From Desmodesmus armatus (taxonomy: Eukaryota; Chlorophyta; Chlorophyceae; Sphaeropleales; Scenedesmaceae), in contig VIIQ02000005.1 in assembly GCA_007449985.2 (NCBI GenBank), forward strand, positions 682,001 through 746,000: DNA of 64,000 nt. Reading direction: 5' to 3'. Below, in pieces: positions 32,672 through 58,232 of this stretch. Made by a program: the position numbers and the translations under genes. The notes under the pieces are model-generated. The model made no database searches. It was not told the DNA's origin and saw nothing but the letters and a program-made list of their open reading frames with translations. The first letter of the stretch is position 1, and each line of letters opens with the position of its first letter.

Positions 32672-33029
32672 ACATTGAAGCAGAAAACAAGCGGCAGTGC
32701 TGCTGATGCTGTTGAAAGGTTGGTTCCTCGTTTGAAAGGTTGATGTTGCACAGCATATGGATGGCAGTGCACAGTGGTTGCTACTGCACGTCCCCTAGCT
32801 GAGCCGGTCCTAGGTCCAGAATGGTAGACCTGCAGTGGCTTGCTGTTGCTTCAGATCAAGTGGCCACTGTAAGCTGAGGCCAGCAGGTGAATCACCATCT
32901 CCAAACAGAGTTGGGCTATTTGTCAAGGTGCAGCATGTGCTGGTTTGCATGCCTGTTGTGCGGGCATGGCCTGTTGCAAGCGATTTTTTTTTGTGCAAGC
33001 GATTGACACTGTGATCCTAGCACACAGGC

Positions 33030-33034
33030 TGTAA
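33030..33034 (+). terminator. Candidate poly(A) signal TGTAA for PUM3
   Basis: TGTAA lies about 360 bp after the PUM3 stop in the correct orientation. Confidence 0.4.
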
Positions 33035-33686
33035 GGGCTGAAAATTTGCACTGCTGTCAAGTATCATGGTCAGCAAACACAAAATGCGTAGTTACATTGT
33101 GTTCTGTGTTCCCATCTTTGTGTGTTCCCAGTGTCTCCACAGGAAATCTTGCTACCTCCCCGGTTCCGGGCACTGTCTCACAAAAGGCGTAGCTGCCCGC
33201 TTGTCTGACACCACATCCGGGGGCGCTGCACCACGAAAAGTGTACCATACCATGCCATGATATAATCGCGAAGGAGCCTGGGTGTCCCCAGGAGCCACCA
33301 TGCAAGCACCTGAGGACTGCACACCCACAGTTGGTGCCATCAAACCAGCATGAAGCACGGCGTGCAACACAGCTTGAAGTAGCCAACCACCAATAACTGG
33401 GCCAGCCCTGTCGGTTCTGATGTCACAGCTGCGGCCTGCGCCAATCAGGCAGTGATCTCTGACTGTACTGCTGCAATGAGCAATGATGATCTGCACCCAA
33501 TGTGGTTCAGAGGACAACTCCCATGGTGCGGACGTACTTGAGGTGGCCAAGCGAATGCAATTCACCGATGAATTCCTTAGTCAGTGACAGCAAGCGTGTG
33601 TGTTCCCCGCATATGGTTGCCAACTGTGATTACCGCCAACATATGAAAACTCGGTTTGTGGGGTGTGCGTTGCCTCATAATGACGC

Positions 33687-33693
33687 TATAAAA
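33687..33693 (+). promoter_or_regulatory. TATA-like box of the thioredoxin-like gene
   Basis: TATAAAA lies 58 bp upstream of the proposed start codon at 33751. Position and sequence are suitable for a core promoter if the 5' UTR is short. Confidence 0.4.
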
Positions 33694-33750
33694 CATTCTT
33701 TTTGACTTTTGAATTCGTGTTGGCGGAACTGAGACAAGGCACGTTTTGCC

Positions 33751-35203
33751 ATGGCTGTTCAAAGTCAGCTGGCATCAGAAGCAGACTTTGCTGCCAGGCT
33801 AGCTACTGGAGGGTGCAAAGGTGCCCACAAATAAACAGTTAGCTGTCGTCTTTCGTTGCCGCAATTCACGTTCGAAATCCACTGGCTGTGCACACCACGC
33901 TGCTTGCTGGGCAACTGCGATGTGCTGCTGCAGTTGTTGAGGTCTTCTCAGAGTGGGCTGGGCCATGCAAAAGCATACTGCCAACAATCAAGAAGTTACG
34001 CCTGGAGGGAAAGGATGAGGAGTAAGGACACTGACGCTGCTGGCCAGTACCAATTGCAGCATGGGCATTCAACCATATGCAGACCCAGCATCCACCATGC
34101 AGCTTACCAGCAGGGAACTGTGATTTCGAATGAATTTGGCATGCTAGTCAGCACTGCATGTTTTCATGGCTGCAGGATGTTGGGGTTCTTCTTGATATCA
34201 GCAGAGGCCTGCTCACACCATGAACAGCTGAGGGAACACCAGGGCAAGTCAGAGCCGCTGTTCCTGGTGTACAGGGTAAGCAGCAAGGACCTCGCAGCGC
34301 TGTGCACCACAGCCCTCCGCTGGCTCACCTATATAGCTGCACAGTTCCTTGCATATGGTCGTTTTGCCACCCACCTTGTTCCTGCCTAGCAAGCGCATGC
34401 AGTGGTAGGACGCAGGCAGCACACCTTGGCTAACCGTCCGAGTACCGTGGAGTACGGTACTCCAGAACACAGCAGGTAGCCCTCTTGGCATGGCTGCAGG
34501 CGCACTTGTCTGAGCACACGTTGTGAGCAGCCGTTGATGTAGTCTGTGTCACATGAATCACACTGACGGTCAGCAACTGCAAACAAAGGGACCAGGTGCT
34601 AGACATATAGTCAACAGCAATGCATGACGAGCCGTTGCGTCCTGTATGTTCATGCAGAACGGGACACTCAAAAACAAGGTGCATGGTGCCAACATCCCCA
34701 GCCTCCTGGAGAGCTTGTCAGAGTGGGTAACACCCCTGCCAGGATTGGATGACCTGGAGGTACGCCGCGGCCTGCTTATGTGTGCTGGGGCCACGAGCAC
34801 GTCATGCCTACAATACACCCGTTGTGTTGGCTGGCGATGAAGCAGTGGACCCCTAGCGTGCCTCAAGTACCGGGGGGCGCGGGGAGGATATGGCCACTGC
34901 GGTGCAGTTTCACACTCCCCCCCCCCCCCGACTGAAGCAGTGCGTCTGGCATTCCGCATCATCTCACTCTCTCGCAAGCAGTGGGCCTTGCGCCACCTTT
35001 AGCACGTGCGATCCAGCTGTCTTGCAAATTTGACGCCGGTGCTCCGTGCGCCCTGCCCCCTGTGCTACCGCCTGACCCTGGTGTATGACTCATCCCTGCT
35101 GCTGTAGGAGAACCCCTTCTATTTGCAGGCCAAGGGCGAGAAGGATGGTGCCAGCAAAGATGGGAAGCGGGATAGCAAGGCCTCTGGCAGCAAGAAGAAG
35201 TGA
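33751..35203 (+). CDS. Thioredoxin-like protein with variant WAGPC site, possibly axonemal
   Basis: Five exons (33751-33820, 33934-34021, 34176-34275, 34658-34759, 35108-35203) give 151 aa in frame. The fold markers are VVEVFSEWAGPCKSI, where the first active-site Cys is Ala, a beta-strand FFLISAEA, and EPLFLVYRNG followed by GANIPSLLE, the block seen in TXNDC3/TXNDC6 and outer-dynein-arm thioredoxins. A Lys/Ser-rich tail follows (NPFYLQAKGEKDG, ending SKKK). With a single Cys it cannot act as a normal dithiol oxidoreductase. A structural or monothiol role is more likely. There is no NDP-kinase domain in reach. The axonemal assignment rests on remembered similarity and is inference. Confidence 0.72.
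34440..34462. repeat. 8-bp perfect hairpin in intron 3 of the thioredoxin-like gene
   Basis: GAGTACCG at 34440-34447 pairs with CGGTACTC at 34455-34462 across a 7-nt loop. Confidence 0.7.
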
Positions 35204-38595: not shown

Positions 38596-39303
38596 GTGGC
38601 TCCGGAGTGCCTTCCGCTGCACAACAAAAACACACACTCAAGAACAGTGCCAATGGAGCTGTCCTGCAGGCTGCTGCAATCCTTTCGTGACACGGTGGCA
38701 GAAGGGGGATGCAAAAAGCTTGTTGTGAATATACCTGAGGAAGCTGGAAGCTGCGAACTGCTCTTCAGATGTCTCTTATTGTTCCAAATGGCCCAGCTGA
38801 GCTGCCTATCCACCTAAGAGTTACTGAGCACTAAACTAAAAATGACAACTGCTTGCGGAACGTATATACAGATGGCTATATACAAGAGAATGTATGTACA
38901 GGCTTCACACTGAATGCTGCGCTTGCACCTCTGCTCCATCTGTTGGGGAGTCGGTGAGGGAGACAGGGCAAAAACCTGTCATGTGGGGCATGGTGGTGGA
39001 CGCAAGGGGTCAGCTGTTTCATGCCGTTTCGTGCATGTGTGTCTTGGTCAATTGTTCGTGGACCCCCTGCTTGCCTTCCTGCTTGTGTCTCAGTCTCCAG
39101 CTGTCCATTCAAGCTACAACAGCACCTCAGCTCTCACACAGAGCCCAGCATGGGATGCCACATCAGATGTGCTGGTTACAGCTTATGTTCTTTTGTTCTC
39201 TGATCCTCAGCTCTGCCAAGGAGATCAGCATTTCAACTCACAGCATTTGCAACTCCAAAGTGAAGCAGCCACCAGCAGCCAAACTTGAAGTTTCAGGGCC
39301 ACA
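38596..39303. promoter_or_regulatory. Divergent region between the unknown protein and the SEC14-like gene
   Basis: About 700 bp with no supported coding exon. A TATA-like stretch (TATATACA near 38863 and 38877) is present but far from both starts. Confidence 0.35.
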
Positions 39304-42300
39304 ATGACTAAAGAGTCTATATCCTCGGCCCCTGTCCACAAGTTCCAGGGGCACATGCCCTACCCCCCAGAGGACAGGATCGATGACTGGGGCCTCAACG
39401 TTGAGCAGCAGGCAAGGCCGCAGTTGCCGTCACATGGCTGTCCTAGCTTATAGTTCCAGCATTGAGAACACTTTCAGGCGTTGCTGTGCCGCCCCTATCG
39501 CAGCAGAGCAGCAGCAGGCAGTTTCTGCTCCTTCAGAACGCCCTGTTGGTTGCTGCTGCAGGAGAGTGCTGTGGAGCAGTTCAGGCAGGAGTTGGAGGCA
39601 CGCAGCGCTTGGCGCAAGGATGATCATGGTGAGGGAAGGCAGCAAGTGTTGCATGTCATGATCAGACGAGCCCCTTCAAGCAGCAGCATCAGGCCAGAAT
39701 CTGACACACTGTGGGGGTTGACGAACACCTCTCAACAGCCTACTGGCATATCATGGTCTGGGGTTGGGTCCTTGGGGCGACTGATGCTGTGCTGCCCCTT
39801 GTAAGCCCACTATGCAGTTGGAGACTTCAATTCATCCTGCTGTGCTGGTGTGTTTGGGGCCCTGCCACAGACTACTATACGCTGCTGCGGTTCCTGCGTG
39901 CGCGCAACTATGAGTTGGACAAGGCCATGAAGATGTGGCTGGACACCTTGGAGTGGCGCACAGAGTACGATGTGGACGCAATCCTGGATGCCTTTGTGTT
40001 TCATGAGCGGGAGCAGTTCCTCATGGCATACCCGCAAGGGTACCACAAAACAGACAAGCTGGTAAGCACACAGACACCAGGGACAGGAAAGCAGGGGAAC
40101 AACACACCAGCAAGGCTGCCTGAAGCTGGGGCTTTCGAGGTGAAAGCGCAGGATTCCTTAGCCCAGCAATGCCACTCCACAGCTACAGCAGGGCTGTATG
40201 CAACCGTCATCAGCACACTTGAGTTTAGTCACAAGATCATGTCCATGTCAAGAGGCTGGGGTGCTCTGCGCGGGTGTATTGGGGAGTATGTTACATGGAC
40301 ATTTTCGCCAAACAACAATGGCATTCATCTATTGCTGCTGTAGGGCCGGCCTGTCTACATTCAGCTGCTGGGCAAGATCGACATCAGCACACTCAAGCAG
40401 ATTACCACGGAGGAGCGGATGATCAAGTTTCACATACAGGAGTATGAGCGCTGCGGCAAGGTCATCATGCCCATCTGCAGTAGGCTGGCAGGCCGGCAGA
40501 TAGACCAGACCTTTGGCATCATGGATGTCAAGGGTGAGTGGCAGGTGGTTCCTGGGGCGAGAGGGGCACGTTGGAGGATTGACGCGTGAAGATGGAGCAG
40601 AAGCCGTGCAGCCTCATGCAGCAGAGTTGGCGCGCGCTGCAAGAAGCAGCAGTGGGACAGCGCACTGTTGGATTTCCATGCATGTTTGCATGAGCAACAG
40701 CGTTCATAACAGCAGCAGTTGTCGCTCCTGCCGCCCCTGATGGTGTTGTCGATGGCAACGTGGCAGCAGTGCAGCGTGCGGTAGCAGCTGCATTGTGGTG
40801 CAGCAGCAGGAAAGTCACCATGCAGCTGAGCAGCAGGCAGCGATAGGACTGGCGCGCGCTGTGCGCAGCAAAGCCTGAGTGTAGCGTGCTGCAGCAGGCA
40901 TGTTAAATGCTGCTGCATGGTGCACATGCGCAACTGCTGTTCGTTCATGCCGTCTCTCCTGCAGGTGTTGGACTGAGCCACTTGTCCGGCGAGGTGAAAC
41001 GGCTGATGAGCACACTGACGAAGTATGACCAGGACAATTACCCTGAGATGCTGGGGCGCATTTGTATCATCAATGCGCCCATGGTGTTCAAGGCTATATG
41101 GCAACTCGTCAAGCCACTGCTCAACCCACGTACGCTGTCGAAGATACAGGTGTGTGAAGGTCAAACAGCAGGGCATGCGGTGCAGGGCATGCAGCAGTGT
41201 CGAGTTGTGGACGCATCCCGCTGGGCATTGCAAGACTGCTGGCTGCCTAGCGGCACGCACGGTGTCTCCCATTGGCGCTGACTAAGCAGCAGGTCAAAGA
41301 GGTGAGTTGCCGCGTACTGTTGTTCCACATTGGCGCTGCTGCTTGTGCAGATCTGTCAGTCGGACTACAAGAAGGACTTGCTGCAGTGGATCGAGCCTGA
41401 CAACCTGCCTGATTGGCTGGGTGGGCGGTCCAAGGGCACACTGCTGGATGACGTGGGGCCATGGAGCGACCCAGAGGTGCTGCGGCGCATGGAGGGACAG
41501 CTCAACGTGGCAGCCAAGGCACTCAAACGCATGAGCACGCTGCCGCCAGTGCCAGGGGACGGGCAGCTGGGGGTCATGGACGAGGTGGCAGACGGCTACC
41601 ACTCACCCAGGTGAGCAAGTTCACGGTCACCTGTTCAATCTCGATGTATCTCATTTTCATCGTCTGCATGGCATTCCTGCCTTTGGTGAAGACACGCTTG
41701 CGTTATCAGCAGCGGCGATCGCCCGAGGTAGGCCTGATCGACCCTCGTCGCGGAGTTCCGCCACTTGCATACTCGGCGGAAGGTCGATCAGACGTTCAAT
41801 ATTGTTGCGACTAAGCTAACCGAAAGACCACGTATTGCTGTCACGGCGGCTTCACAAAACATCTGGGTGCACTGGGGTTGTCCTTAGTGCCTTCTTCATC
41901 TGCCAGTCAACGCAGCAGGCAGCTGTTCACCCTTCCAACCATGTCTGAACATTGTGGGGTGCAGGAGCCTCAGGAGTAGAAGGGTACGTTGTCTGGCCGC
42001 TTGCCTGCATAATGAAACATCCTATGGCATGCCCTGAGTGAAAATGTTCATGCTTGCTTGTCTGCCCCTTGCTGTGTTGACAGGTCTGAGGCGTCTTTTG
42101 TGTCAATCAGCAGCAGCACAGCGCCGTCAGATAGCAACAGCATGCCCCTCTTGTCGCATGCGGGCTCGGGCGTGTACCAGCAGCAGCAGGTGCAGCGGGG
42201 CCCCAGCGTGACAGGGGACGACAGCGCCTCTGTTGGTGCAGCGGACAGCCCCCACCATGAAGCCAGCATAACAGCAGCGCCGGGCAGCACTGTGCTGACG

Positions 42301-43216
42301 ATAGCAGCCATCAATGCACACAAGTAAGCCAACCATTGAAATTTTTTTGGGGGAGGGGGCTGTCAATGCTGCTGCCTTTGATAATCCGTTTGCTAGTGCT
42401 GGCCTGTACCTGTTTTCAAATCCGGGTCCTGTCAGGCATGCTGACCAAGCACAATTGTTTGCTTTCTTGATGCCTTGGATGCCCTGTAGTCGGTCAGCAG
42501 TTGTTCTTGTGAGAGCGGGATTGGCGCGGCTGCACTGAGACTGTGTTGTGTTGCACATTGTTGATTTTCCAGGCAGCGCAATCTGCTGGAGCGCATGGGG
42601 GCGCTTGAGGCGGCGTACGCAGAGCAGATGCAGCGTCTCAAGGGCTACATGCCCGCCAGCGCATTCAGCCGGTTGCGGGGGCGGCTCAGCAGCGGCGTGG
42701 GTGCTGGCGGCAGCGTGATGCAGCGCATGGAGCTGTTGGAGGAGGGCTTGGAGCTGCTGCTGCGAGCGCAGGAGCTGTCTTGGCAGTCGGAGCAGCAGCA
42801 GAAGCGGCGAGACAGGTGTTGTGGTGGCTGCACAATATGTTGAGTCGTGGGGGTTCTGGGGCAAGGTATTTATGAGCAGCCGGCTTGTATGGCGCGGGTT
42901 GCTGCTCACGTGTGCTGCATGTGTATGCAGACTGACGTGACATGACTAATCATGGGGGCGGGGGTATCAAGCACAGGTCCACAGTGCAGGCTCGGTTTTG
43001 CATGGCTAGTCAGACCAGCAAGGGAGTGTGTACATGGAAGGTCGTGCTTCTTGCATTCAGGCGTGTACTATCTGCCTTCACAGGCTGCCGAGGCTCCTGG
43101 TTGGCAAGCATAGGGTGCTGCCGTTGACTCAGCTGTTCCTGCAGGCAGTGGCCTGGCCACTCTGGCCATCTTGCAGGCAAATGCAGCTGCATGGCATGTC
43201 CCAATCTGCATGGTAG
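39304..43216 (+). CDS. SEC14-like (CRAL-TRIO) phosphatidylinositol/lipid transfer protein
   Basis: Nine exons (39304-39411, 39562-39628, 39871-40061, 40344-40533, 40965-41149, 41351-41610, 42084-42323, 42573-42815, 43084-43216) give 538 aa in frame. The CRAL-TRIO N domain is seen in YYTLLRFLRARNYELDKAMKM, and the lipid-binding domain in GRPVYIQLLGKID, FGIMDVKGVGLSHL, YPEMLGRICIINAPMVFKAIW and KPLLNPRTLSKI. The final GGRSKGTLLDD is at the usual end of the domain. Sec14 proteins exchange phosphatidylinositol and phosphatidylcholine between membranes and steer PI4P synthesis. A Ser/Gln-rich linker, a predicted helix with ERMGALEAAYAEQMQRLKGY and a hydrophobic tail follow, a layout like plant SFH proteins. 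Intron 1 begins GC rather than GT. Confidence 0.9.
41734..41791. repeat. Two-part hairpin in intron 6 of the SEC14-like gene
   Basis: CTGATCGACC (41734-41743) pairs perfectly with GGTCGATCAG (41782-41791). Inside, TTCCGCC pairs with GGCGGAA. A 12-nt bulge separates the two helices on the 5' side. Confidence 0.8.
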
Positions 43217-44375: not shown

Positions 44376-46724
44376 CTACAGCTTGTGGGCTTGTCCCACA
44401 AAGACCTGCAGGAAAGCAAAGCCACACACCCTCAGGACATCATTCGCATCCTTGCAGCTACTTGCGGCAGCTAGGTCTACCTCAATGCCATGCTGAGCAG
44501 CCTCTGCTGCTGCCCTCGTCAGGGTTGCTTCTCCGCCTGGGGCTGTGGGCCAGGGCAGGAGCCACAGCTGCTGCGACTCGCGCGTGGCACCAGGCTGTTG
44601 CGAGGAACACTGCAGGGACTTCAGCTTCAGCCGCAATGCCTCCGCAGTCGCCTGACCGGGTGCATCCCCATCGACCGCGATGATGATGTGCTGCAGCTGT
44701 GACAGCTGCCCAGCTGCCGCATCCACGCAGGCTAGCTTCCTGCTGCGAGGATCGGGGTTGCCCTGCGGCACTGCTCCTGCAGGAAGGCTCAGCACAGCTG
44801 TGCCCGCATCGTCTGGGTGGTCCAGGGCAGTGTCTAGGGCCAACTTGTCCATCTCACCCTCAACGATGATGGCAGCACTCGCTCCCTGAACACACCACAG
44901 CAGCACAAAGCATTTGCAAATTGGTGGGTGACATGACCACTCAAAAAGCAACAGGGACAAAATGCTGTGTCAGCTGATGTGGCAGAAAGCAGTTCGACCA
45001 GCTTCCGTTTGGCCAGCTGTCGGCAGGGTCAGCCCTTAGTGCCGCCCATAGCAGCCAGCACACCATGTAGCATGCTGGCACTGTTGACAGCAGCCATGCC
45101 TGTGGCACAATGGGCGCCACTACTAGGCCAGCAGCAGGTTACTTTGCACTCCAAATCCCCCCACCTGTAGGTCATTGAGGCCGTAGAACACCTGCTGTCC
45201 GTTCTGAACCTGCCAGAAACTCTTCTCGAGCGACCTGTACTTGATGTTGACCAGCACGTCTCCCCAGTAGTAGGGGAAGGCGATGATGGGCTCCCGCTGT
45301 GGTGAGGGCTGCACCATGCTGACACGGCTGCGCTGCAGAGCTGAGGAGCTGATGCCGCGCTCGCTTTGAAACCAGTCCACCAGGCTATTTGACAGGGGCA
45401 ACAGCTCCGCAGCCTTGTGGGGTGCAACAGAGGCAGGCAACACCTGCATGCGGAGCGGCGGTAAGCAGTGGTGAGGTAGAGCGGTGAGCAAGCCTTTGGT
45501 CGGGATGGCCCTGGCTGAACTTTGACAGTAACAGTCAGGGGATGGATGTCTGGTGGCGTGTGTTGAACAAATGAGTTGCACCAGGTTGTGTGATATCCTG
45601 ACGAACAGCATTTGGAAGCTCCTGTGCTCTGCAAAGCCACCCTGGCTACTGCACATGATGGGCTGCAATGAGTGTATGTGATGGAAGCCATGAAGCTATG
45701 GTAGGTTGATTTGCCCAACAATTGGTGACACTGCTGTGTTGTGGCAGTGCCCCTACATGATATAACAGCCTGTGCACCTCAACATAACTGATCCAGCGTG
45801 TGTCAGCATTGGGGCTGGCAGAGACACAAACACAACAGGAAGATACAAGCAAACTGCTCACCGGCTCAGCTGACACGCCACCGACCCTCTCTGTGACGGT
45901 CCTGCTGCTGCCCCAGCTGCTGTCATTGGTGCTACTGCTACTGCTGCTGCTGCGCCGCCGCCACCTCCCAGGCAGATAGAACGATCCCTGCCAGCTGCAC
46001 GTCGCTCTGAAGCATTTCCAAGTCACATACCCGCTCTGGTTCACCCTGAGCAACAGGGAGTTTTCTGCGCTGCTGCCACCTTCACACTCAGGGCACATCG
46101 GGCGCTGTTTGCCAACATGCAGCCGCGGCAGCGGCTCAAAGCCGTGCTCAAGCAAGCGCTCCTGCACCCGCAGCAGCAGCTCCTGCTCTGTCTGCCACCC
46201 AGCACTGCTGGTGGCTGGCTGATGGCAGGGCTGCGAGTACCTTTGAGTGGCAGGGTTGGTGCTGCTGCTGCTAGGTCTGGAGCCCCTGCTACTTTGTACC
46301 AGTTGCAGAGGCTCTGTCTGAGCAGCTGCAGAAGCAGCAGCAGCAGCAGCAACAGAGCCTGCAGTGCTGGCATCACTGTGCGCATGGTGGCCAGGCTGCA
46401 CAAAGGCATGTTGTGGTGCTGCTGTGTTGGGTGCAGCGCTGGCGCTGCCTGCTGCATTGATGCTGCGTGTGCCGCGTGGCCTGCTGTCCAGACTGCTGCT
46501 GCTGCTGCTGCTGTTAGGGGTGCTTGAGCTGCCATCTATGTAGGTTCTGCTGCCGCTGCCCTGCACGTCGGCTGGCAAGGGGCTGTGAATGTCGGCACTG
46601 ACTTGCCTGCTCTTGGAACGACCACCGCTGCAGCTGCTGCTGCCTTCTGTGACTGTGGTGGATCTGCGCCTCCTGCGCCCCATGATGAAGCTTTCCTGCA
46701 GCTTCCCACTGGTTGGGATGCTGC

Positions 46725-46761
<37 letters not shown>

Positions 46762-47568
46762 GCCGCCGCTGCTGCTGTGAGGAGCTTCCACCACAGGCTC
46801 TGACACTGCCTGTCTTTCTGCCACCATGGCCTGCAGGGCAAAAAAAAGCTTGGGGTAGCTGCCCGTATAGCTGCGGCCTTCGGTCCTCAGAGCTGGCAGC
46901 AGCCCTGTGCTTGATGCCTTGGCGCGCTCAACTTCCGCAGCCAGCCGCTTCGGTGGCAATGCTGCCACCTGCGCTTCCAGCTGCTGCAGCTCAGGAGGGA
47001 TCCATAGCTGCTGTGGGTCAACAGCTTCAGGGGTCATGTAGGTGAAGTGGCGGGTGAGCTGGAACCCGCCTGCAGGTGTGAGGGCTTCTGGGGCCCGAGG
47101 CTGATTTGCCCTGGAACTCAGCTGTGGCTGCTCTGCCTGCAGCTGGTGGCCAGGCCCCTGTACGGCCTGTTGCTGCTGCTGGTGGTGCTGCTGCGCCTGA
47201 ACAACCTGACGCTGCTGCTGCTGCTGGTGCTGCTGCCGCCGGTCAACACGCGGTTGCTGGAGCAGCATCGTTCCCAAGGGTGTCCTGGTGAGAATGGGCT
47301 GCTCAGGTTGCTGCAGTAGCTGTGTCCCCAGGTATCGATGAGCTGGCTGTACGGGCTGCAGGACACTTTGTTCGCCGTAGGTAGCATGGCCTTCACTGCT
47401 GCCGGTGCTGGTGGTGGTGCGCCTGGTCAAACGTCGTGTGGGGCGCTGCTGTGCCTGCTCAGGTCCTGGCCCATGATGGCTCAAGGCGGCAGCTGCCAAG
47501 GCCACTCTGGGACGTCCCTGTCCAGAAGCCTGGCTGCTGCCAGCACAAGAGGATGCCGGCCTCAGCAT
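44376..47568 (-). CDS. Primase-only Twinkle paralogue: zinc finger plus TOPRIM, no helicase
   Basis: Three exons (45862-47568, 45165-45443, 44376-44885) give 831 aa in frame. The N-terminal half is low-complexity (Gln, Ser, Arg) and may carry organelle targeting. The zinc-binding domain reads CPECEGG with a second Cys pair in WKCFRATC. The primase fold follows: IAFPYYWGDVLVNIKYRSLEK, then FYGLNDL. The TOPRIM domain has IIVEGEMDKLAL (catalytic Glu), IIAVDGDAPGQ (Asp pair) and KDANDVL. These match plant Twinkle, a phage-T7-gp4-like primase-helicase of plastids and mitochondria. The protein ends about 20 residues after KDANDVL, just where the linker and helicase should begin. The neighbouring divergent gene encodes the helicase half. 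The start at 47568 is the first ATG in the open frame. Confidence 0.87.
46726..46760. repeat. Pure GCT/CTG microsatellite coding poly-Ser in the primase gene
   Basis: About 35 bp of uninterrupted GCT units sit in the low-complexity N-terminal half and encode a Ser run on the minus strand. Confidence 0.9.
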
Positions 47569-48097
47569 TCGCTGGTGCAGCCTGTGTAGTGACCAAGGAA
47601 GGAAGCACTGCAGCACCAAGACCGACTGGCCCACAAGGGTTAGGATACCTGTTGCCGATGCAGCAGCTAAAGGATTCTTGCAAATCTTACAACCTGATAT
47701 TGAATGAGGAAGTGAAGAATGGAAAGAGGGTCTTGATAAAAACCGCGCGTCAGATCAGCTCTGATCATTGCACTTTCAAACTATGGCTTTCAATCCCATA
47801 GCCGCGGTACCCTTTGGGCTTGACAAGATTGATCACATTGGATATTTTGGCTTTCGCTGCCGCTGAGGTCTATGCTCAGAGCAGCAGCAGCAACAGCACG
47901 CATGCTCTCTAGCTGTGCTCGCCTTTGCTGCACCCACTGCTCACCAACGAATCACCCGCATCTTAGCCACAGCTTGACACGCCGACACACACGAGGCAAA
48001 GGTCGCCTCCTGCCCAAAGGACATGCAGCTACATGGTGAGGTGCTGCTGCCACCTTGTGTTACATGTGTTACATGTTGATCACGCATTGCAAGGGCC
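47569..48097. promoter_or_regulatory. Shared promoter region of the two Twinkle paralogues
   Basis: About 530 bp lie between the two divergent start codons. It includes an AT-richer patch near 47690-47800. No other exon was recognised. Confidence 0.5.
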
Positions 48098-51000
48098 ATG
48101 CACGACATCCATGTGCCGCATGCCTCTTGCAGGGATCTGAACCGGCCTGCTAGTCTATGGTCAGCAGTGTTCCAAGGGCACCTGGGCCAGCCACAGCTGT
48201 TCCTTGCAGCATCCTGCCACACAGGAGTAGTAGCAGCGGCAGCAGCTGGGCAGGAGGGGTCCGAGGGTCAGTCCCTGCAGAAGAATGCAGTGCTCAAACC
48301 CAAGCGTGGGCCCCCACGGCCTCCAGTTCACAGGAGCAGGAGTTCCAGTAGGGCCAGCACCTCTGCTGACCCCACGGACAGCAAACCACCACCAGGGGGT
48401 GACGCTGCTGGTGGCAGCAGCGGTACCAGCAAAGCAGGTGTTCAACAGGGACGTTCGGGCAGCCGTGCAACGGAGCGCCTGGGCGCAGCATTGCTCTACC
48501 AGAACCAGAGGGTGCAACCACGGCAAGCGCAGCAGACACCACCCCAGCAGCAGCTGCAGCAGCAGCTGACGCCAGCGTCGCCCCCGCCGCCGCCGCCGCA
48601 GCAGCAGCAGCAGCAGGTGGCGCCACAACCACCGTGGCCTCAGCAGCAGCAGCTGCCGCAACCTCCACAGCAGAGCCTTCACCAGCAGCAGCAGCAGCAG
48701 GGCGGGCAGCCACAAACAAAGCAAGCTCCCTGGGACGTGTCACGCCCCCAAACAGCTCCTGACGCCACCAGCAGCCAAGGGCCTGGCGCAAACGGTGTGC
48801 ATCAACTTGACAGCAGCAGCAGTAGCACCAATACCATAGACAACAGCAGCAGCAGCAGCAGCAGGGGCGCACCTGTGCCACCTCCCTCAGCAGTGTCAGA
48901 GGCCCCACTGGAGCCCATCCTGGTGCAGCAAGGTGCAGATGTTGGGCTGGCTCACAGCCTCGTCCCCCCTAGCCAGGCTGTCAGCGAAGATGCCCTGGAC
49001 TGGGTGGCCAGCCTGGACCTCCAAACAGAAAGGGATCATTGGGTGTGGTGCTGGGCGAGTGGAGGGCAGGCATGGCCACAGCCACACACCCCTTCACCAA
49101 GCAGCAGGTCAGCAGGAGAGAGGCAGGCAGGGAGAGGGGAGAACGGGGGGCAGCAGGCGCGCGCCTAGGCGCGTATTTTGCTGAGCAGGTAGCGCGCGAT
49201 AGGAGCTGCAGTACAGTGTACATGTCTTGCATCCGTTGATTGGGATGTCAGTCCGCTTGGCTATGCTGTTGGTGTTTTGTGAATCAATGAACAGTTGTGT
49301 ACCACAGCGCAATGCAGCGGACAAGCAGCGGCTGCGTCCTGCATAGCAACATGCAGCAGCCCTTGTCGCTGCCACCCTTCAGTACCCTGCTGCCAATCCT
49401 CCAAGATGGGCATTTTAATTTTTTGCGTTACCATGATGTGGATATTTCCCTGTCTTGTGTGTAGGTTGAGGTGCTGGCGCTGCCGTACTACCGCCACGGC
49501 AAGCTGGTGGACATGCGTTACCTGCATCTGGTGGATGGCCGGTTGGAGGCGAGCTGGCTGGCAGCACAGGCTGGACAGCCCTACATGGTGGAGGAACACC
49601 TGCAGGTGCGCAGGCACGGACCTGGCGCTGACATCATGTAGTCTGCGTGCCCTGTCGACACAAGACAAGCGTTGATGCATGTTGACACAGGACTTGCAAC
49701 CAGCCATGTCAAGTCAGCACGACAGTCAGGATGTATCTTGCGTTGGGGGGCTGGGGACTATTCGACTAGGGGGGTTGCGCTGCTGGCTGTGGTTCTGAGT
49801 GCGCCGCCAGCAGCATTAATGTGAGGGTAGGACTCTCCTGCAGCATTGAGCAGAGATGCTGCCTTTGTACCTGTGGCTAAACAGCTTGGAACCAACAGCA
49901 TCATCACCCTCTGCTGCTGCCACTGCTGCATGTTTCTATCCACTCGTGCAGGGTACAACGCAGGTGGTGTTTGTCTGCAGTGAGCTAGAGGCCCTGCTGC
50001 TTACAGCCACACAGCCAGACTGGGCTGTAGTTGCCCTCACCCCACAGACCCCCCAGTGGTTCCCCTGCGACCCCCAGCAGCAGCTTGCCCACATGCAGCA
50101 GCAGCAGGAGCAGCTTCCCGAGGACCCACGGCGACGCTTGTTAGCCTTACAGGATGAGTTGCAACGGATACGGCAGGAGTATGAGCTGGGGCAGCAGCGG
50201 CAGGCAGCAGCAGCTGCATCAGCAGCTCGTGAGCAGGGACTGTTGGTGTCCGAGGTTGCTGCTAGCAGCCCCACAGGGCTGCAGCTGCTTGTCAACCATC
50301 TGCCCTACCAGGCTGCTGCAGGCAGCAGCGGCCCTGGCCAGCATCAGCATCAGCAGGGTGATCAGGGGGACATTGTGGCTGTCATAGCAGTGCAGGAGGG
50401 TGACAGCATGCAGCCGCTAGCAGACGCCCTAGCGCTGCTGCTGGGGGAGCTGCACTGCAGGAAGGCATTCTGGCCGAGCTACCGGTATGCCAAGCCTGCT
50501 GACGTGGCCGCGCAAAGCATGGCAGCAGCAGCACAGGCCGCAGCAGCAGCACAGGGTCAGGAACTCCCAGCCCTGCAGCTGGCAGCAGCCCTGCAGGCTG
50601 CTCCCATAGGCCGCAACCCCCTGCCGTCAATCCTCGATGCCCCGGCCTGGCAGGAGCTGTTGGGTGATGTGAGCTCAGCACAGTCGCCGCCGCCTGAAGG
50701 TTTGTTGCAGTGCCTTACTCTAGACAACCTGGCTGGGCCTGGGGTGCTGTCAGGCTGGAGTCTGCTGTCAGTGCACTTACTGAGGGGCGTGCTGAACCAG
50801 GCTGCAGTGGCGGCAGGTGATGTGGGGCTAGCGGAGCACCAGGGGGTCGAGGAGTGCCTGAGGGATGCTACGGTGTGGCCACTGAGTGGTCTGGAGCGCT
50901 TTGCTGACTACAGTGGGCTGCTGCTGGAGTACTGGGATGAGACCAACAAGGCGCAGAAGGCGCGCAGCACTGGCTGGCCCTCACTGGACCAATACTACAA

Positions 51001-54000
51001 GGTGACAGGAGGGCTAGGGTTGCGCAGTGATGCCAGGGCTGCTGCGCGCATTGTGTCTGTGAACGCTTGTTGACATGCGTATCGTTTTCTGCTATGTGAA
51101 GAGGCTAGCAGGGGGGTTGAGCAGAGTGGGTGGGTGGGTGGGTGGCTGAAGGTGTCAGCTTGGCTTTTGAGTCTGGCAGAACAGGTCATTGCCATTGTTG
51201 GCCAGTCTCTCGTGCCTGCGCAAATGGTGCATTGCCAGCTAGCTGCCTCAACTACTTTGTCAGTGTGACGCGGGTGGTAGGCCTATGGGAGGGCTAGGGC
51301 TGAGGGCGTGATGCTGGGGCTGCTGCGCGCATTGTTCCTGTGGTTGCTTGTTGACATGCGCACCAATTTCCTGTTGTTGGGGGGGGGGGGGGGGCGGCAG
51401 GGAGGCTGGGCAAATTGGTTGGGTGGGTGGGTGGCTGCAGGTGTCAGGTTGGGGATTTGAGGCCGGCAGAGCAGGTCGTCACCATTGCTGCTCAGTCCCT
51501 GGTGCTTGCGCTGGTGGTGCTTTTCCAGTCAGCTGCCTTCTGAGTTGCCAACAGTGTTAGTGTGATACGCGTGTTGCTTTTGTTGAATGACCGATGACAT
51601 CACCACGTCCTGCACCTTGTCTGTTCTGCCTCCCCTGTCCACCACCAAAACCCTCCGGGCCATACCCCTGGCCTGCCTGCAGGTGTGTCCTGGCGAGGTG
51701 ACTGTGGTGACTGGTGTGCCCAACAGCGGCAAGTCAGAGTGGCTGGACGCCCTGGCCGTCAACCTGGCCCAGTCCCGGGGCTGGAGGTTCGCCATGTGCA
51801 GCATGGAGAAGCGGCCCAGGGACCATGCACGCCAGCTGCTGGAAAAGATTGAGGAAAAGCCCATGTTGCAGGCAGACTATGCACGAGGGGTGGGCCAGAT
51901 GAGCGAGGCGGTGAGTGGGACTGGCATTTTTGCCCCCGGGGGGCCCGGCAGCAGGGGTTGGTGGGAGGGGACATAGAGCGCCCCTGTAGGCATCAGGGAA
52001 GTGCGCACCAAGGGTAGGGTAGGGAACAGTGCAGGTGGGTTTTGGGATCAGGGCTTGTGACTGCTGCATATTCCGGCAATGGTACGGTGTGTGACGCAGG
52101 GCAGTGGCTGCACATTGGCATGGCGTGCTGCGCACCACTCCCTGTGGGGCCAGCATGGTGCTGCCATCCTGTCGCTTGCAGTGGATGCTATGTGTTGTGA
52201 CCTTAGCAGCGGCCTGCACTCTCACCAATCGTCTGACTGACTACTTTGTGTTTGCCGGCCTGCCTGCCTACCTGCTTGCCTGCCTACCTGCCTTTGTGTG
52301 CCCATTGCGCACGCGTCCACAGGAGCTGAGCGAGGCGTATGAGTTCCTGTGCAACCACTTCTACGTCATTGCTGCGGGCGAGGGCAGCATGCCCAGTGTC
52401 AGCTGGGTGCTGGAGAAGGCACGCGCAGCCAAGATACTGTGAGACACACGGCAACCTCCTGCAGCCATTGCTGCAGCACATGCCTTCTTTGTACTGTCAC
52501 CAGGCCTCCTGGTATTGCAACTGCGCACAAAAGGCTTTCAAACCTGGGGCTCAGGCTTTCATGACCTCTGACACCTGCCAGTACCACTCTTGGGCTGGTC
52601 CTGCGGATCTGTTGTTGTGCACCCCTTATTTTTGTTACCAACATCAGCCTGTGTTCATGTGGTGTGCAGGTACGGCATTGATGGGCTGATCATTGACCCC
52701 TACAATGAGCTGGACCCGTCCCATGCACCTGGCTTCAAGGAGCACGAGCATGTCAACCAGACCATGGCTATGCTCAGGAAGTTTGCAAGGGACCACAAGG
52801 TCAGTATCAGCGCACTGTGGGCGGCCTGATGCAACTCAGGCGTGAGGATCTTCCTGTGCAGCGTGCTGAGCGCTTTGATGCAAGCAGCGCTGGCAGCAAT
52901 GCAGAGTGACTCTGTTGCAGGAAGCTCGGCTGGTTGCACCCTTGCTGTGTGTGTTGGTGCATCGTGTGCTTCCATGTGTGTATCATATTGCGCGGGCATG
53001 GTGGTCAACCAGGTGTGCGTGCAAACCCCCTTTCCCCAATCTCCACACTGTGCCCTTCTGCTGGCAGGTCGCCGTATGGCTGGTTGCGCACCCGCGCCAG
53101 TTTGCGGCGCAGTGGTCTGGTCAGCGTCCTGGGCTGCAGGACATCTCTGGCGGCGCCAACTTCGCCAACAAGGCCGACAATGGCATCGTGGTGCACCGCA
53201 ACTGGGCGCGGCTCAAGGAGCTGAGGGAGAGGGCCGCAGCAGCCAGCGGCAAGAGCCTCACACAGGGCGGCAGCAGGAGGCACAGCAGGGCAGCACGCGG
53301 CAATGGTGCTGGGCAGGATGGGGAGGAGGAGGAGGTTGATGTGCTGGCTGACCTTGAGGTGGAGATATATGTGGAGAAGGTGGGTGGCATGCACAATGAT
53401 GGTGATGCACAGGCAGGTGGCAACGCAACCCATGATCCCATCGGCTGGCCCTCGTCACTTTGTCAGGGCACACCGATAGACACCCCTGGAGCCAGGCTTG
53501 TGCGATCGCTAGTGTGTGGTGTGCGTGCTGTCTCAGCTCAGATTTGTGGTTGCAAACCACCAACTGGGTGGGTGGTGGTTTCGACTGTGGGGTACTCCTG
53601 CTTTTGTTGTTATGGAATTATGCTGGGCGGTTTCCAGTGTTGCAGTGACGTACACGCAGGCAGAGTTGCCAAAGCGAGGCCGCACTGCCTGCACGGGTCG
53701 TGGCAGGTGTGCCACTGCTGCTCCCCTTACTCAGTGTCTGTGTGTATGCTCTGTGTGTGCTGTGCTGGTGCTACAGGTGCGCAACAAGAGCACTGGGTCT
53801 AGAGGGGACTGCAGGCTGTACTACGACAGAGCTACGGGCTGCTACTTTGACCCTGCTGATTCTGAATTCCAGGGTTGGCATGCGGGCTTGCAGTCTGTGG
53901 CCAAAGCAGGCCTGTCGTCAGCACAGCAGCGGCAGAAGCAACAGCAGCAGCAGCATTCAGTCACGACGCCATCTGGCGGACCACCGCCAGCCAGCAGCAG

Positions 54001-54178
54001 CAGCATCAGCAATAGCCACATGGACAGGGAGGCTGGGGCGCCCGGCCCACTGCCCAATGCTGCCCTTGAGCAGCAGTGGCTGGAGGACGAGGAGAAGCGA
54101 GCAGCCATGCAGAGGCAGTATTCCTCAGGCCTGGAGCTGTCACCGGGCTCCTCTGAGCCCATACCATCAGGAGACTGA
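48098..54178 (+). CDS. Helicase Twinkle paralogue with degenerate primase half
   Basis: Exons: 48098-49107, 49465-49605, 49952-51001, 51683-51910, 52323-52438, 52670-52799, 53068-53379 and 53777-54178. The helicase core is intact: TGWPSLDQYY linker end, GVPNSGKSEW (Walker A), CSMEKRPRDHARQLLE (H1a), GLIIDPYNELD (Walker B), VWLVAHPRQ (H3), DISGGANFANKADNGIVVHRN (H4) and VRNKSTGSRGDCRLYYDRATG with the Arg-finger region. The primase half is eroded: no CxxC zinc finger, VEVLALPYYRHGKLVDMRYL remains, EGEMD is CSELE, and DGDAPG appears as EGDSMQ. The N terminus is Gln/Ser/Pro-rich. Exon 1 is one base short of phase, so a frame break or missed splice lies before 49107. The role is probably unwinding plastid or mitochondrial DNA. 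Confidence 0.85.
51011..51573. repeat. Diverged tandem duplication with G-rich runs in helicase intron 3
   Basis: A unit of about 270 bp starting GGGCTAGGGT (51011-51276) is repeated at 51291-51573 with clear but diverged similarity. Each copy has the GCTGCTGCGCGCATTGT block and a GGGTGGGTGGG run. A 16-base G run is at 51379-51394. Confidence 0.75.
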
Positions 54179-55344
54179 CGTCTCTGTTGATGGTTGATTA
54201 CACATGGTTGAAACCATGTTACTGATTCAAAGTTGGAATCGCTGTTGCCATTGCTGCCTAAGGATGTTGAAGCAAACATCTGACTTGAGAAGCACTGTGA
54301 TCTGTATCAGCATGGGTACAGGAGTGCCAGTGTAGCACCGTGCACTATCATAGGCGTTAGGGAAGGACGTTTGACGGGGGCAGGTGCAATCGTTGTTACA
54401 GGGGCCCAGCCGTGTGCATGCGCACTCAACGGTTCACCAGGTGACCCTGCACCCGGCCTTGCTAGTGGTCAAAGCCCACACGCATGCGTGAATGGCAGAG
54501 CTGGTGCACATACAGCCCCAGGCTATCCCTCAACGAGACTGCCCCCACCCCCGTTGTTACCATGCTGCAGACCCAGACTGGTAGGGTGCAGGTTGGACAG
54601 GCCCCCTTATCACTCAGCACCGCCCAAGGCTTTTGGTGCACCACACGCACACTGCACCCATCCCGAGCAGTGGATGCTCAGCTGAGCTAGGCGATTCACT
54701 CCCTCTTCCCATGCAAGGATGCCAAGTCTTCAGTGCCATTGCCAACAACAAACTCCACGCACAGCACTAGAAATATGCCCCAATCCGCTGCCCAGGCACC
54801 CTGGGACTAAACTACCCTCAGTAACAACCAGCACTGTAGCTTCTGCTGCGGCCGCAGTGCCCTGACGGCTCCTTCGCGCTTCTTGAGGCGGTTGGCAGCG
54901 ACGTCAACACCATCACTATGTAGTGCTGAAGGGGCGAGGTTCTGAGCTTGATTCGAGACCTGACGTTGCCCCTCTTGCTGCATGCCTGGCAGTTCCTGGT
55001 GGGCCTCCTGGTTACGTGGTAACTCCCTACCCTTACTAGGTATCCCCCCCCCCCAAATGCTCCTTTCACGGCCCCTTCCCTCTGGTCTCCATACCCACTG
55101 TCTGGTGCAATTTCGAATCACTGCATTCCATTGGATGTTTGTCTCGTTTCCGCTCCGGAGCGGGGATCCCCTTTTGGGGTGGGTTTAGTGGCTTTCAAAG
55201 TTTGAGAAATAGCAACGCCATTCCCCCTGCACTCACCTACTTTCTCCTCTCAGATCCTGCATTGAGCGAGAAGGTTAAACTTGCTGAATCGATCCGTTGG
55301 GGGCGAGGCAGTGAGGGCCGGCAGGCATCGAGGCATCTGGTCTG
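54179..55344. other. Intergenic, helicase 3' UTR and promoter of the surface-protein gene
   Basis: No supported exon. A minus-strand open frame at 54818-55121 is Lys/Arg/Ser-rich but unrecognised. Three tiled palindromes occur at 55150-55179. Confidence 0.4.
55150..55179. repeat. Three overlapping palindromes upstream of the surface-protein gene
   Basis: CCGCTCCGGAGCGG (55150-55163), GGGGATCCCC (55162-55171) and CCCCTTTTGGGG (55168-55179) run into each other without a gap. Confidence 0.85.
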
Positions 55345-58232
55345 ATGGGCTGCTCCAGGTACGCCCTCGGGTGTGGGCTCAGCCTGATCATGATAGTGCA
55401 TGAGCTACAAGCATATGGACTGCTTGATCGGCGCGTGCAGCATCAGGTTGCGATCGCCTTGCTCACCTGGCCCACTTCGCTCCTATGTGTTTGTGCCTGC
55501 AGGCTTTGGCTTGGCCTCAGTAGCCCGGCTGTAGGCTTGCTGTGGTGCTTGTTGGTGGCCTCTGTGCATGCAGCTGGCGAACAGCCCCCAGCCTACTGCG
55601 TGGTCAGCGTGCGTGGCTCAGGGTCTGCTGCAGTCGGGCCCATCCAGTCCTTCAGCTGGTCCTGCACCAATGGCAGCAGCATGCTTACGGTGGGCGTGGA
55701 CAAGTCGATGGCAGCTTTGAAGTCCCGTGCTGAGGGCATCACCTTCAGCAACAGCTGCACCAAGCCAGGCTGCCTGATCACAGTGTGTGGCAGCACACCC
55801 CTGGTGCTGTGGTTCAGCAGCTTCACAGGTGTGTACGTGCCGGGGGTGGAGTCCGTGCTGTGCGCGGCTGACAGCAGCTCGGTGACCATCAGCAACAGCA
55901 CCACCTTCAGCGGCAACAGAGCCCGTGCCATCCAGGCGCGCGACGCTGCCAATGTCACCATCACAAACAGCAACATTGTAGGCAACGTCCTGCCACGAGC
56001 AGACGGTGGGGGCGTGTGGCTGGGCGCTGGTTCCCCTTCCCTCACCATGCTCAACAGCACGGTCAGCGGCAACAAGGCCAGCTCCGGTGGCGGCCTGTGG
56101 TTGGGAGGCAGCGCCACAGCAGTGATCAACAGCAGCAGCATCAGTGGCAACCACGGCATTGCTGTGCGCAGCACTGGCGGGCTGGGTGGTGGGCTGATGG
56201 TGACTGACAATGCCACCGTGGAGCTGGGTGGCAGCACCACGGTGGACAGCAACACCGCTGGGACCAGTGGTGCGGGTGTGTTTAGTGCTGGCAATGCTGC
56301 ACTGATTGTTTCTCCTGGTGTGAAGTTTGGGCTCAACCAGGTTGTCAACAAGTCGTTTGGGTATGATGTTGCTGCATCAGGTGCCAGTCGCCTTGACCTG
56401 CCACCTGTCACCTTTGCAAACTACACCGCTGCTGCTCTAGCTGGCATCTCCAAGTGCAGCAAGGGTGTTGCCCTTGAGCGGAGCCCCTGTGGTGTGGGCG
56501 AGTTCAGGGACAACAGGACTGGTGTGTGCATGTGTTGTCCTGAGCGCACGTATAGTTTTGATGCATCTGGCACTTGCCTGGCTTGCCCCGAGCGTGGGGC
56601 GTGTCCCGGGGGTGACGCATTGCAGCCTCTGCCAGGGTACTGGCGCTCATCTAACCAGAGCACCCAGATGCACTTGTGTCCGCTCGGCAAGGTGTCTTGC
56701 GCTGGTGCAGGAAAGTGTCAGCAGGGGTACACGGGGCGGCTGTGTGCCAGTTGTGACAGGGGCTATGGCAGCAGTGGGCCTCTTCGCTGCAGCAAGTGCC
56801 TGAACCCCAGGCTGCAGTTTGGCATTTACATCTTCCTAAGCATGGTCACAGTCGTTTTGTGGCGATCACGGTGCACTTCACATACGCAGACAACGTTGAG
56901 GGCAGCAATGAACTGCGCCCCTCCGATCTGATCAAGATCCTTGTGTTGTATGTGCAGCACCATGCTATCATCGGCTGTGTGAACCTCCCGTGGCCCCAAT
57001 TCTACGCCAACCTCTTCAGGGCGTCTGACAGTGTGTTTGGTGTTGGGGCAGGGTCGTCTCTGTCTCTGCAGTGTTGGGCACAGCAGATTGCTGGTAGGCC
57101 CCGGGACAGGTTGCCCAATGCCATGCGAATGCAGCTGGTGATGTTCATGACACCTGTGCTGGTGTTTGCAGCTGTTGTCGTGTTTCGGCTGCTGTGGTGG
57201 GTGTTCATGAAGGGCATGAACTCTGCACTTCGGAACACCAACAGCGAATGTGTGACCCCCGGTTGTGTGAAGTTGTTCCAACCCTCAACACTGCGCGCTT
57301 TGGCACGCAAGCTGCCTGTCACGGTGCTCGTGGTGCTGTTCTATGCCTACCCCACCCTGTTGCGTACGGCCCTGCGGTTCTTTGCCTGCCTGCCCATTGA
57401 CTCTGCCAGCCCTGGCAGCTTGGCGAAGCTGCTGTCGCACAAGGCGGGGTACCTCATGGTTGACCTCAACCAGGAGTGCTGGGTGGGCTGGCACAGGGCC
57501 TGGGCATTGGGGTTGGGTATTCCCTCTGTTCTGCTCACATATGTGGTGATTCCTGTGGGCCTGTTTTGGCTGCTGAAGGCCAACCAGCACCGTGCCGGTG
57601 ATCTGAGGTTCAGGGAGACCTTCGGGTTCCTGTTCCGCAACTACAAGCCAGAGTTTGTATACTGGGAGTCTTGTTGGACTGTTCAGACAGTCGTCCTCTC
57701 GGCTATCGCGGTGCAACACTTCGCCCTTGGCGCGTACCAGTCGATCCTGTTGATGTCCCTCGTGTTCTTTGTGTTTGGATGTCTACAGTCGATGTGCAAG
57801 CCCTACGCCATCCGCAAGTTGCACCAGGTCCACTATGGCGCGACCGTGGTTCTATTCCTGACCACCATGTCCGCGTTGGCCATGTTCCATGTAGAGGGTT
57901 CAGCCCCTCCACATGACACGGCTCGCAAAGTTATTGGGGTCCTCACGTTGGGGTTGAACATCTGTTTCTCGAGCTGGTGCCTGTATGAGGCTGCCGTGTC
58001 CTCAGGGAAGAGTGTCAAGGCGGTTGCCGGCAAGGTGGTGGGGTGTGTCACCTGCAAGCCTGCCAAGCAGTCCAGTGTGGGACGTGTTGGCAGGCTGGAA
58101 GAGGTGGTGAATCAGGGATCAGGTGTATCAGAGTGCCCCAGCTGGACCACAGGCTCGTCATCGGGCATTGCTGTGGTAGACTCTGCACAGCAGCTCAACA
58201 AGCAGCTGAAGCCCAGCTGCCGTGCCTCTTAG
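55345..58232 (+). CDS. Surface protein: beta-helix repeats, Cys-rich module, multi-TM C half; one frame break
   Basis: A 14-nt first exon (55345-55358) splices to 55503, giving a signal peptide (VGLLWCLLVASVHAAGEQ). Next come repeats of the NSTVSGNKASSGGGLWLGG type, typical of right-handed parallel beta-helix or polymorphic-outer-membrane-like proteins. A Cys-rich EGF/GCC2-like module follows (GVCMCCPERTYSF, CQQGYTGRLCASCDRGYG). The C-terminal half holds several membrane segments (ILLMSLVFFVFGC, TVVLFLTTMSALAMF). The frame changes once between the module and the membrane half, at about 56850-56870, where one extra base would join the two open frames into a protein of about 914 aa. Similar architectures are common in green algae as presumed cell-surface sensors or adhesins, with function unknown. 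It may be a pseudogene, but long open frames on both sides favour a sequence error or recent lesion. Confidence 0.7.

Follow-up and report, generated by a model that had tools for sequence, protein, structure and literature searches.

The stretch of Desmodesmus armatus DNA analysed here, which we call the window, spans 64,000 nucleotides and corresponds to positions 682001 to 746000 of contig C4 in a 115.8 Mb assembly of 831 contigs. Open reading frames, motifs and profile matches show that it holds two genes derived from the Twinkle primase-helicase, which lie head to head: a primase-like gene running leftward and a helicase-like gene running rightward (Table 1). The left gene has three exons in a single frame (47568 to 44376) and encodes 831 amino acids (aa), while the right gene was modelled with nine exons (47872 to 54178) and encodes 1150 aa; the introns of both are of the GT-AG type. 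The original prediction had put about 530 base pairs (bp) between them, which holds as the distance to an ATG at 48098, but with the upstream start that we model for the right gene the gap is 303 bp. The shortness of this gap makes it a candidate for a shared promoter, and it is on this shortness that the bidirectional promoter for balanced expression proposed in the original prediction is based.

Table 1. Features of the two Twinkle-derived genes, in window coordinates.
Feature	Position	Strand	Content
Left exon 1	45862..47568	-	Presumed start 47568, presequence, low-complexity stretches, Cys4 zinc ribbon CPECEGG..WKCFRATC
Left exon 2	45165..45443	-	N-terminal part of RNA polymerase (primase) fold, IIAFPYYWGDVLVNIKYR
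Left exon 3	44376..44885	-	TOPRIM: VEGEMDKL, VDGDAPG, KDANDVL; stop at 44376
Inter-start space	47569..47871	.	303 bp, presumed start codon to presumed start codon
Right exon 1 (model)	47872..48035	+	Amphipathic presequence MLRAAAATARMLSSCARL
Right exon 2 region	48133..49107	+	No zinc ribbon in the low-complexity N-terminal part; short intron or frame break near 48.92-49.03 kb
Right exon	49465..49605	+	Decayed N-terminal primase fold, ALPYYRHGKLVDMRYL
Right exon	49952..51001	+	Decayed TOPRIM without first Glu, DxD or KDAN; linker to helicase
Right exon	51683..51910	+	Walker A GVPNSGKSEW, then next motif CSMEKRPRDHARQL
Right exon	52323..52438	+	Helicase gene exon
Right exon	52670..52799	+	DPYNELD motif
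Right exon	53068..53379	+	VAHPRQ; DISGGANF...DNGIVVHRN
Right last exon	53777..54178	+	KVRNK...YDRATG motif, C-terminal tail, stop at 54178

Our assignment of both genes to Twinkle is based on profiles made from 17 proteins having primase and helicase motifs (three of which, P0039, P0118 and P0144, have no zinc ribbon as annotated), with which all six frames of the window were scanned. Significant primase-profile matches fall in three reading frames, all of the left gene (E 8e-26 to 6e-15), and significant helicase-profile matches in five, all of the right gene (E 5e-36 to 1e-7); the primase remnant of the right gene reaches E 0.085 at best. By these matches both genes descend from the Twinkle family, and neither of them unites in a single chain all four parts of a bifunctional Twinkle (zinc ribbon, primase fold, TOPRIM and helicase).

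The left gene had been described from its sequence as carrying a Cys4 zinc finger, a primase fold and an intact TOPRIM before stopping ahead of the linker, and motifs, Pfam and profiles agree with this. Toprim_4, Toprim and Toprim_2 all score above the Pfam cut-off. The chain ends 18 residues past KDANDVL, a point at which complete Twinkles continue into the linker. Downstream of 44376 the helicase profiles found no helicase exon in any of the six window frames, as had been predicted, because their significant matches all fall in the right gene. In a sequence search against chains of the Protein Data Bank (PDB) the left primase had no match at E up to 1. Foldseek alone placed mostly topoisomerase and RecR TOPRIM domains on top, with DnaG at rank 6, and a second structural alignment ranked DnaG, gp4 and Twinkle first.

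The right gene likewise bears out its earlier description, which gave it every helicase motif, no zinc finger and an eroded TOPRIM. DnaB_C and AAA_25 are found above the Pfam cut-off in its protein, and no Pfam TOPRIM family is found at E up to 0.1. Two Cys4 patterns detected no zinc ribbon in the three unspliced forward frames from 47572 to 49950; the broader of the two recovers the ribbon of the left gene. Against PDB chains the right protein has weak matches to DnaB (E 0.0014) and Twinkle (E 0.02 and 0.022). Its presequence was graded strongly amphipathic, with a moment of 0.53 that is equalled by 3% of shuffles; for comparison, the values are 0.40 (26%) for its relative P0003 and 0.62 (4%) for the algal Twinkle P0016. 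The predicted structure of P0003 suggests that the primase part of the right gene keeps its fold despite the lost residues. Helicase domains dominate the structure comparison of P0003 and few rows cover the primase remnant, so that the fold of this part is judged from model confidence and those few rows.

Both states are also found in other proteins. From a helicase search (best 120 of 444 proteins) and two primase searches (best 120 of 610 and best 120 of 354) we compared the residues of 28 proteins, namely three of the left family (the window gene, P0237 and P0238), six of the right family (the window gene, P0001, P0002, P0003, P0092 and P0109) and 19 others. The closest named helicase relatives among the best 120 of 444 come from Scenedesmus sp. 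NREL 46B-D3 and Raphidocelis subcapitata, both Sphaeropleales. All three left-family proteins keep EGE.D, DGD and KDANDVL. The six right-family proteins have all lost the initial Glu of EGE.D, the Asp pair of DxD and KDAN, except that P0003 retains one Asp of the two; the five relatives of the right gene, two of which come from the named Sphaeropleales algae, thus share its TOPRIM losses. An EGEDD in P0109 lies outside the TOPRIM part and was excluded from the motif counts as a chance occurrence. The same six proteins keep Walker A GVPNSGKSEW, DPYNE and VAHP, and have D(I/V)SGGANF in common where the other 19 helicases have DISGSAHF. No zinc ribbon was seen in any right-family protein, but its absence is firm only for the window gene and, in their annotated form, for P0002 and P0003. 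Of the other three, P0001, named as a transcriptome open reading frame (ORF), has its first residue within the primase fold, and P0092 and P0109 have no initial Met and may be truncated. The left relatives P0237 and P0238 are exon-like and end 20 and 22 residues past KDANDVL.

EGE.D, DxD and KDA are kept in 17 of the 19 other rows. The exceptions, P0004 and P0017, have TOPRIM motifs decayed in other ways, and P0017 retains its zinc ribbon; these sequences hint at a repeated loss of priming.

In our trees the right family forms one clade, supported at 100/99 among the 25 rows of the helicase tree and at 100/100 among the 28 rows of the primase tree, and in the latter the left family forms a clade of its own (100/100). 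Neither the primase nor the helicase set took in any animal sequence. Long branches came together in the first primase tree, and for this reason the second was built without P0004 and P0017. Judged by these sequences the window pair is not an artefact, as both of its states recur in relatives.

A search of the organism's own genome revealed a second Twinkle locus, on contig C108. The gene there (30009 to 35048) carries all four domains, from zinc ribbon through primase fold and TOPRIM to helicase, in a single frame and was modelled with nine exons, the first of them provisional; its TOPRIM motifs are EGELD, DTDGPG and KDASEVL. In the tree its helicase sits on a long branch. When its protein was searched against the genome, 18 of the 19 matches at E up to 10 fell in C108 and C4, and the other, on C720, had E 2.57. 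We therefore count two Twinkle loci and three Twinkle-type genes found in this genome, with a full-length Twinkle on C108 and the pair on C4. The left, right and C108 genes share an exon boundary before IIVEGE, and the right and C108 genes also share those before VVPGE and YGI.G, which points to a common intron-bearing ancestor of all three. Six-frame genome searches with PF03796 (DnaB_C) and PF01807 (the DnaG zinc domain) gave no match at E up to 1, but such searches are insensitive to split exons. This absence of DnaB and DnaG counts for little, because the helicase exons of the two known Twinkle helicase genes escaped PF03796 as well. A search with PF13481 gave one match below cut-off, on C5, and missed both Twinkle helicase genes as well.

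The C108 gene changes how the pair should be read. The idea that the two copies specialised after duplication is supported by the active sites kept and lost in the window and in the relatives. The further idea, that they form the organism's organellar primosome as such and have taken the place of the fused one, lacks support, because a four-domain Twinkle exists in the same genome. The original prediction had itself named a complete Twinkle elsewhere, together with untranscribed window copies, as an outcome at odds with it, and the first half of that outcome is what the C108 gene represents. The window pair is thus an additional Twinkle set, split in two, that exists alongside an ordinary one.

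Other features of the window can be mentioned briefly. Next leftwards is a SEC14-like gene (39289-42840, plus strand), identified by eye from its exons and convergent with the primase gene. On the 3' side of the helicase gene, plus-strand frames at 55315-58232 match a right-handed beta-helix and DUF7630, with a TRP-channel match below cut-off, and a reading frame at 31421-32668 (plus strand) has a CPL (NUC119) domain. Rfam at gathering thresholds gave no match in the whole window.

Several known systems resemble one half of the pair or the other. The left gene is like Arabidopsis Twinky (At1g30660), which is described in passages of PMC3610141, PMC6554949 and PMC6843274 as having the primase part only and ending near the linker; the likeness is one of motif content, the left gene keeping its active-site residues, ending at the linker and having no helicase. 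Twinky, however, neighbours the full-length Twinkle At1g30680, whereas the left gene adjoins a helicase-only gene and the full-length Twinkle is on another contig. According to PMC10557236, the isolated Arabidopsis primase module makes primers that are used by the organelle polymerase, and the two parts of this module remain functional on separation. The same text gives N163, R166 and K168 as the residues of the ribbon that read the template. Reading the motif by eye, we find K, R and T at these positions in the left gene and N, R and K in the C108 gene, so the two primases may differ in template preference.

The right gene resembles animal Twinkle in its state only, with helicase motifs intact and the zinc ribbon and TOPRIM metal residues lost. 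According to PMC9860392, the N-terminal domain of human Twinkle has lost priming, still binds DNA and aids the helicase, and priming in human mitochondria is done by POLRMT. Unlike human Twinkle, the right gene adjoins a Twinkle-type primase gene, and its closest named relatives among the matches listed are green algal. Bifunctional plant and algal Twinkle and T7 gp4 have the same domains and motifs in one chain, where the window pair has two. Red algal plastids use DnaB and DnaG as separate organelle helicase and primase (passages of PMC3914683 and PMC4166229), but these are of cyanobacterial origin and the window pair is of Twinkle origin. Table 1 of PMC4166229 lists two TWINKLE genes, Cre12.g503150 (pt) and Cre12.g514950 (pt, mt), for Chlamydomonas reinhardtii, likewise a chlorophyte.

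A split organellar primosome of this kind had been called, as far as known, undescribed. We found no description of a green algal helicase-only Twinkle, or of a primase and helicase pair of Twinkles, in the parts of the open-licence literature covered by our search, and PMC12230644, searched for green algae, gave no passage on them. Primase-only Twinkle in Arabidopsis and helicase-only Twinkle in animals are each known separately from these sources, and what appears to be new is to find both as a pair.

The most likely explanation, which we hold with fair confidence from the sequences, is that a second Twinkle locus became two specialised genes, a primase on the left and a helicase on the right, for use on organelle DNA. 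The left protein would be a stand-alone primase with zinc ribbon, polymerase fold and TOPRIM and no helicase, and the right protein a ring helicase whose primase part has neither zinc ribbon nor metal-binding residues. Both would enter an organelle. There the right protein would unwind the DNA while its dead primase part gives structural support or holds on to DNA, a role that has been proposed in human Twinkle. The left protein would supply the organelle DNA polymerase with primers in trans, which the isolated Arabidopsis module does in vitro. By analogy with these two systems, the left protein could prime alone and the right protein could unwind with its dead primase as support. The least certain parts of this explanation are joint action of the two proteins at a single fork and service of the intact C108 Twinkle in another compartment or for another task.

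A number of observations weigh against it. The presequence of the left gene is not clearly amphipathic (moment 0.24, equalled by 68% of shuffles). The right gene has one unsettled coding boundary near 49.0 kb. Comparison by eye with P0002 and P0003 indicates that the right-gene residues preceding VEVLALPYY should be GMATATHPFTKQQ, which lie in another frame and end at 49107; this implies a short intron or a base error at about 48.92-49.03 kb, and the end at 49042 that we modelled for exon 2 is probably incorrect. The conserved parts are unaffected. The ends of P0237 and P0238 are those of predicted proteins whose stop codons were unseen. The second primase tree does not show the left and right families to be sisters (support 33/0, with the bootstrap not settled), and pairing either the left or the right with the C108 gene is not rejected (p-AU 0.52 and 0.49). 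Finally, no primase-only protein of Scenedesmus sp. or Raphidocelis is among the best 120 of 610 or the best 120 of 354, although the database does contain the helicase relatives from both. Perhaps the pair is not general, or perhaps the primase gene of these species is unannotated or falls beyond the length limits.

This last observation would also suit two specialised genes with unlinked uses that share only a promoter region, the left one being a Twinky-like extra primase, for example in the plastid, and the right one a helicase that works in a different organelle or in repair. We regard this as a serious possibility, if not quite an even one. The left and right presequences differ in amphipathicity, and Arabidopsis Twinky is said to be located in the chloroplast, on unpublished data cited in a passage of PMC4166229. 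The head-to-head placement and the complementary loss and retention of residues suit joint use instead, without proving it. It is improbable that we see ordinary decay, with the C108 Twinkle sufficient by itself and at least one of the two window genes turning into a pseudogene. Such decay would fit the four-domain gene on C108 and the frame question in the right gene, and PMC6843274 leaves open whether Arabidopsis Twinky itself is active or a pseudogene. The catalytic motifs of the left gene and of the right helicase are intact, however, and each family has members among the relatives whose motifs match, P0001 among them being named as a transcriptome ORF. An assembly inversion that split one bifunctional gene would also give halves lying head to head, but we dismiss it as very improbable: left and right are not halves of one gene, because each has its own version of primase fold and TOPRIM, intact in the left and decayed in the right, and each state is seen on its own in relatives that come from elsewhere.

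The explanation of two specialised Twinkle genes can be taken one step further, to a two-chain, all-Twinkle primosome in a green algal lineage, in which a helicase with a dead primase part and a head-to-head primase acting in trans would serve one organelle and the bifunctional Twinkle the other. We put this forward tentatively, as possible but somewhat doubtful. If true, it would be an independent return from the fused plan of T7 to a divided plan like that of DnaB and DnaG. A cell that has a lone primase and a helicase together with the intact fused enzyme would provide a natural experiment on why Twinkle fuses primase and helicase. The right gene suggests that a helicase of the plant lineage has lost priming, as human Twinkle did. 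Whether priming in trans is sufficient in an organelle, and whether organelles can differ in their primosomes, could be tested through this alga.

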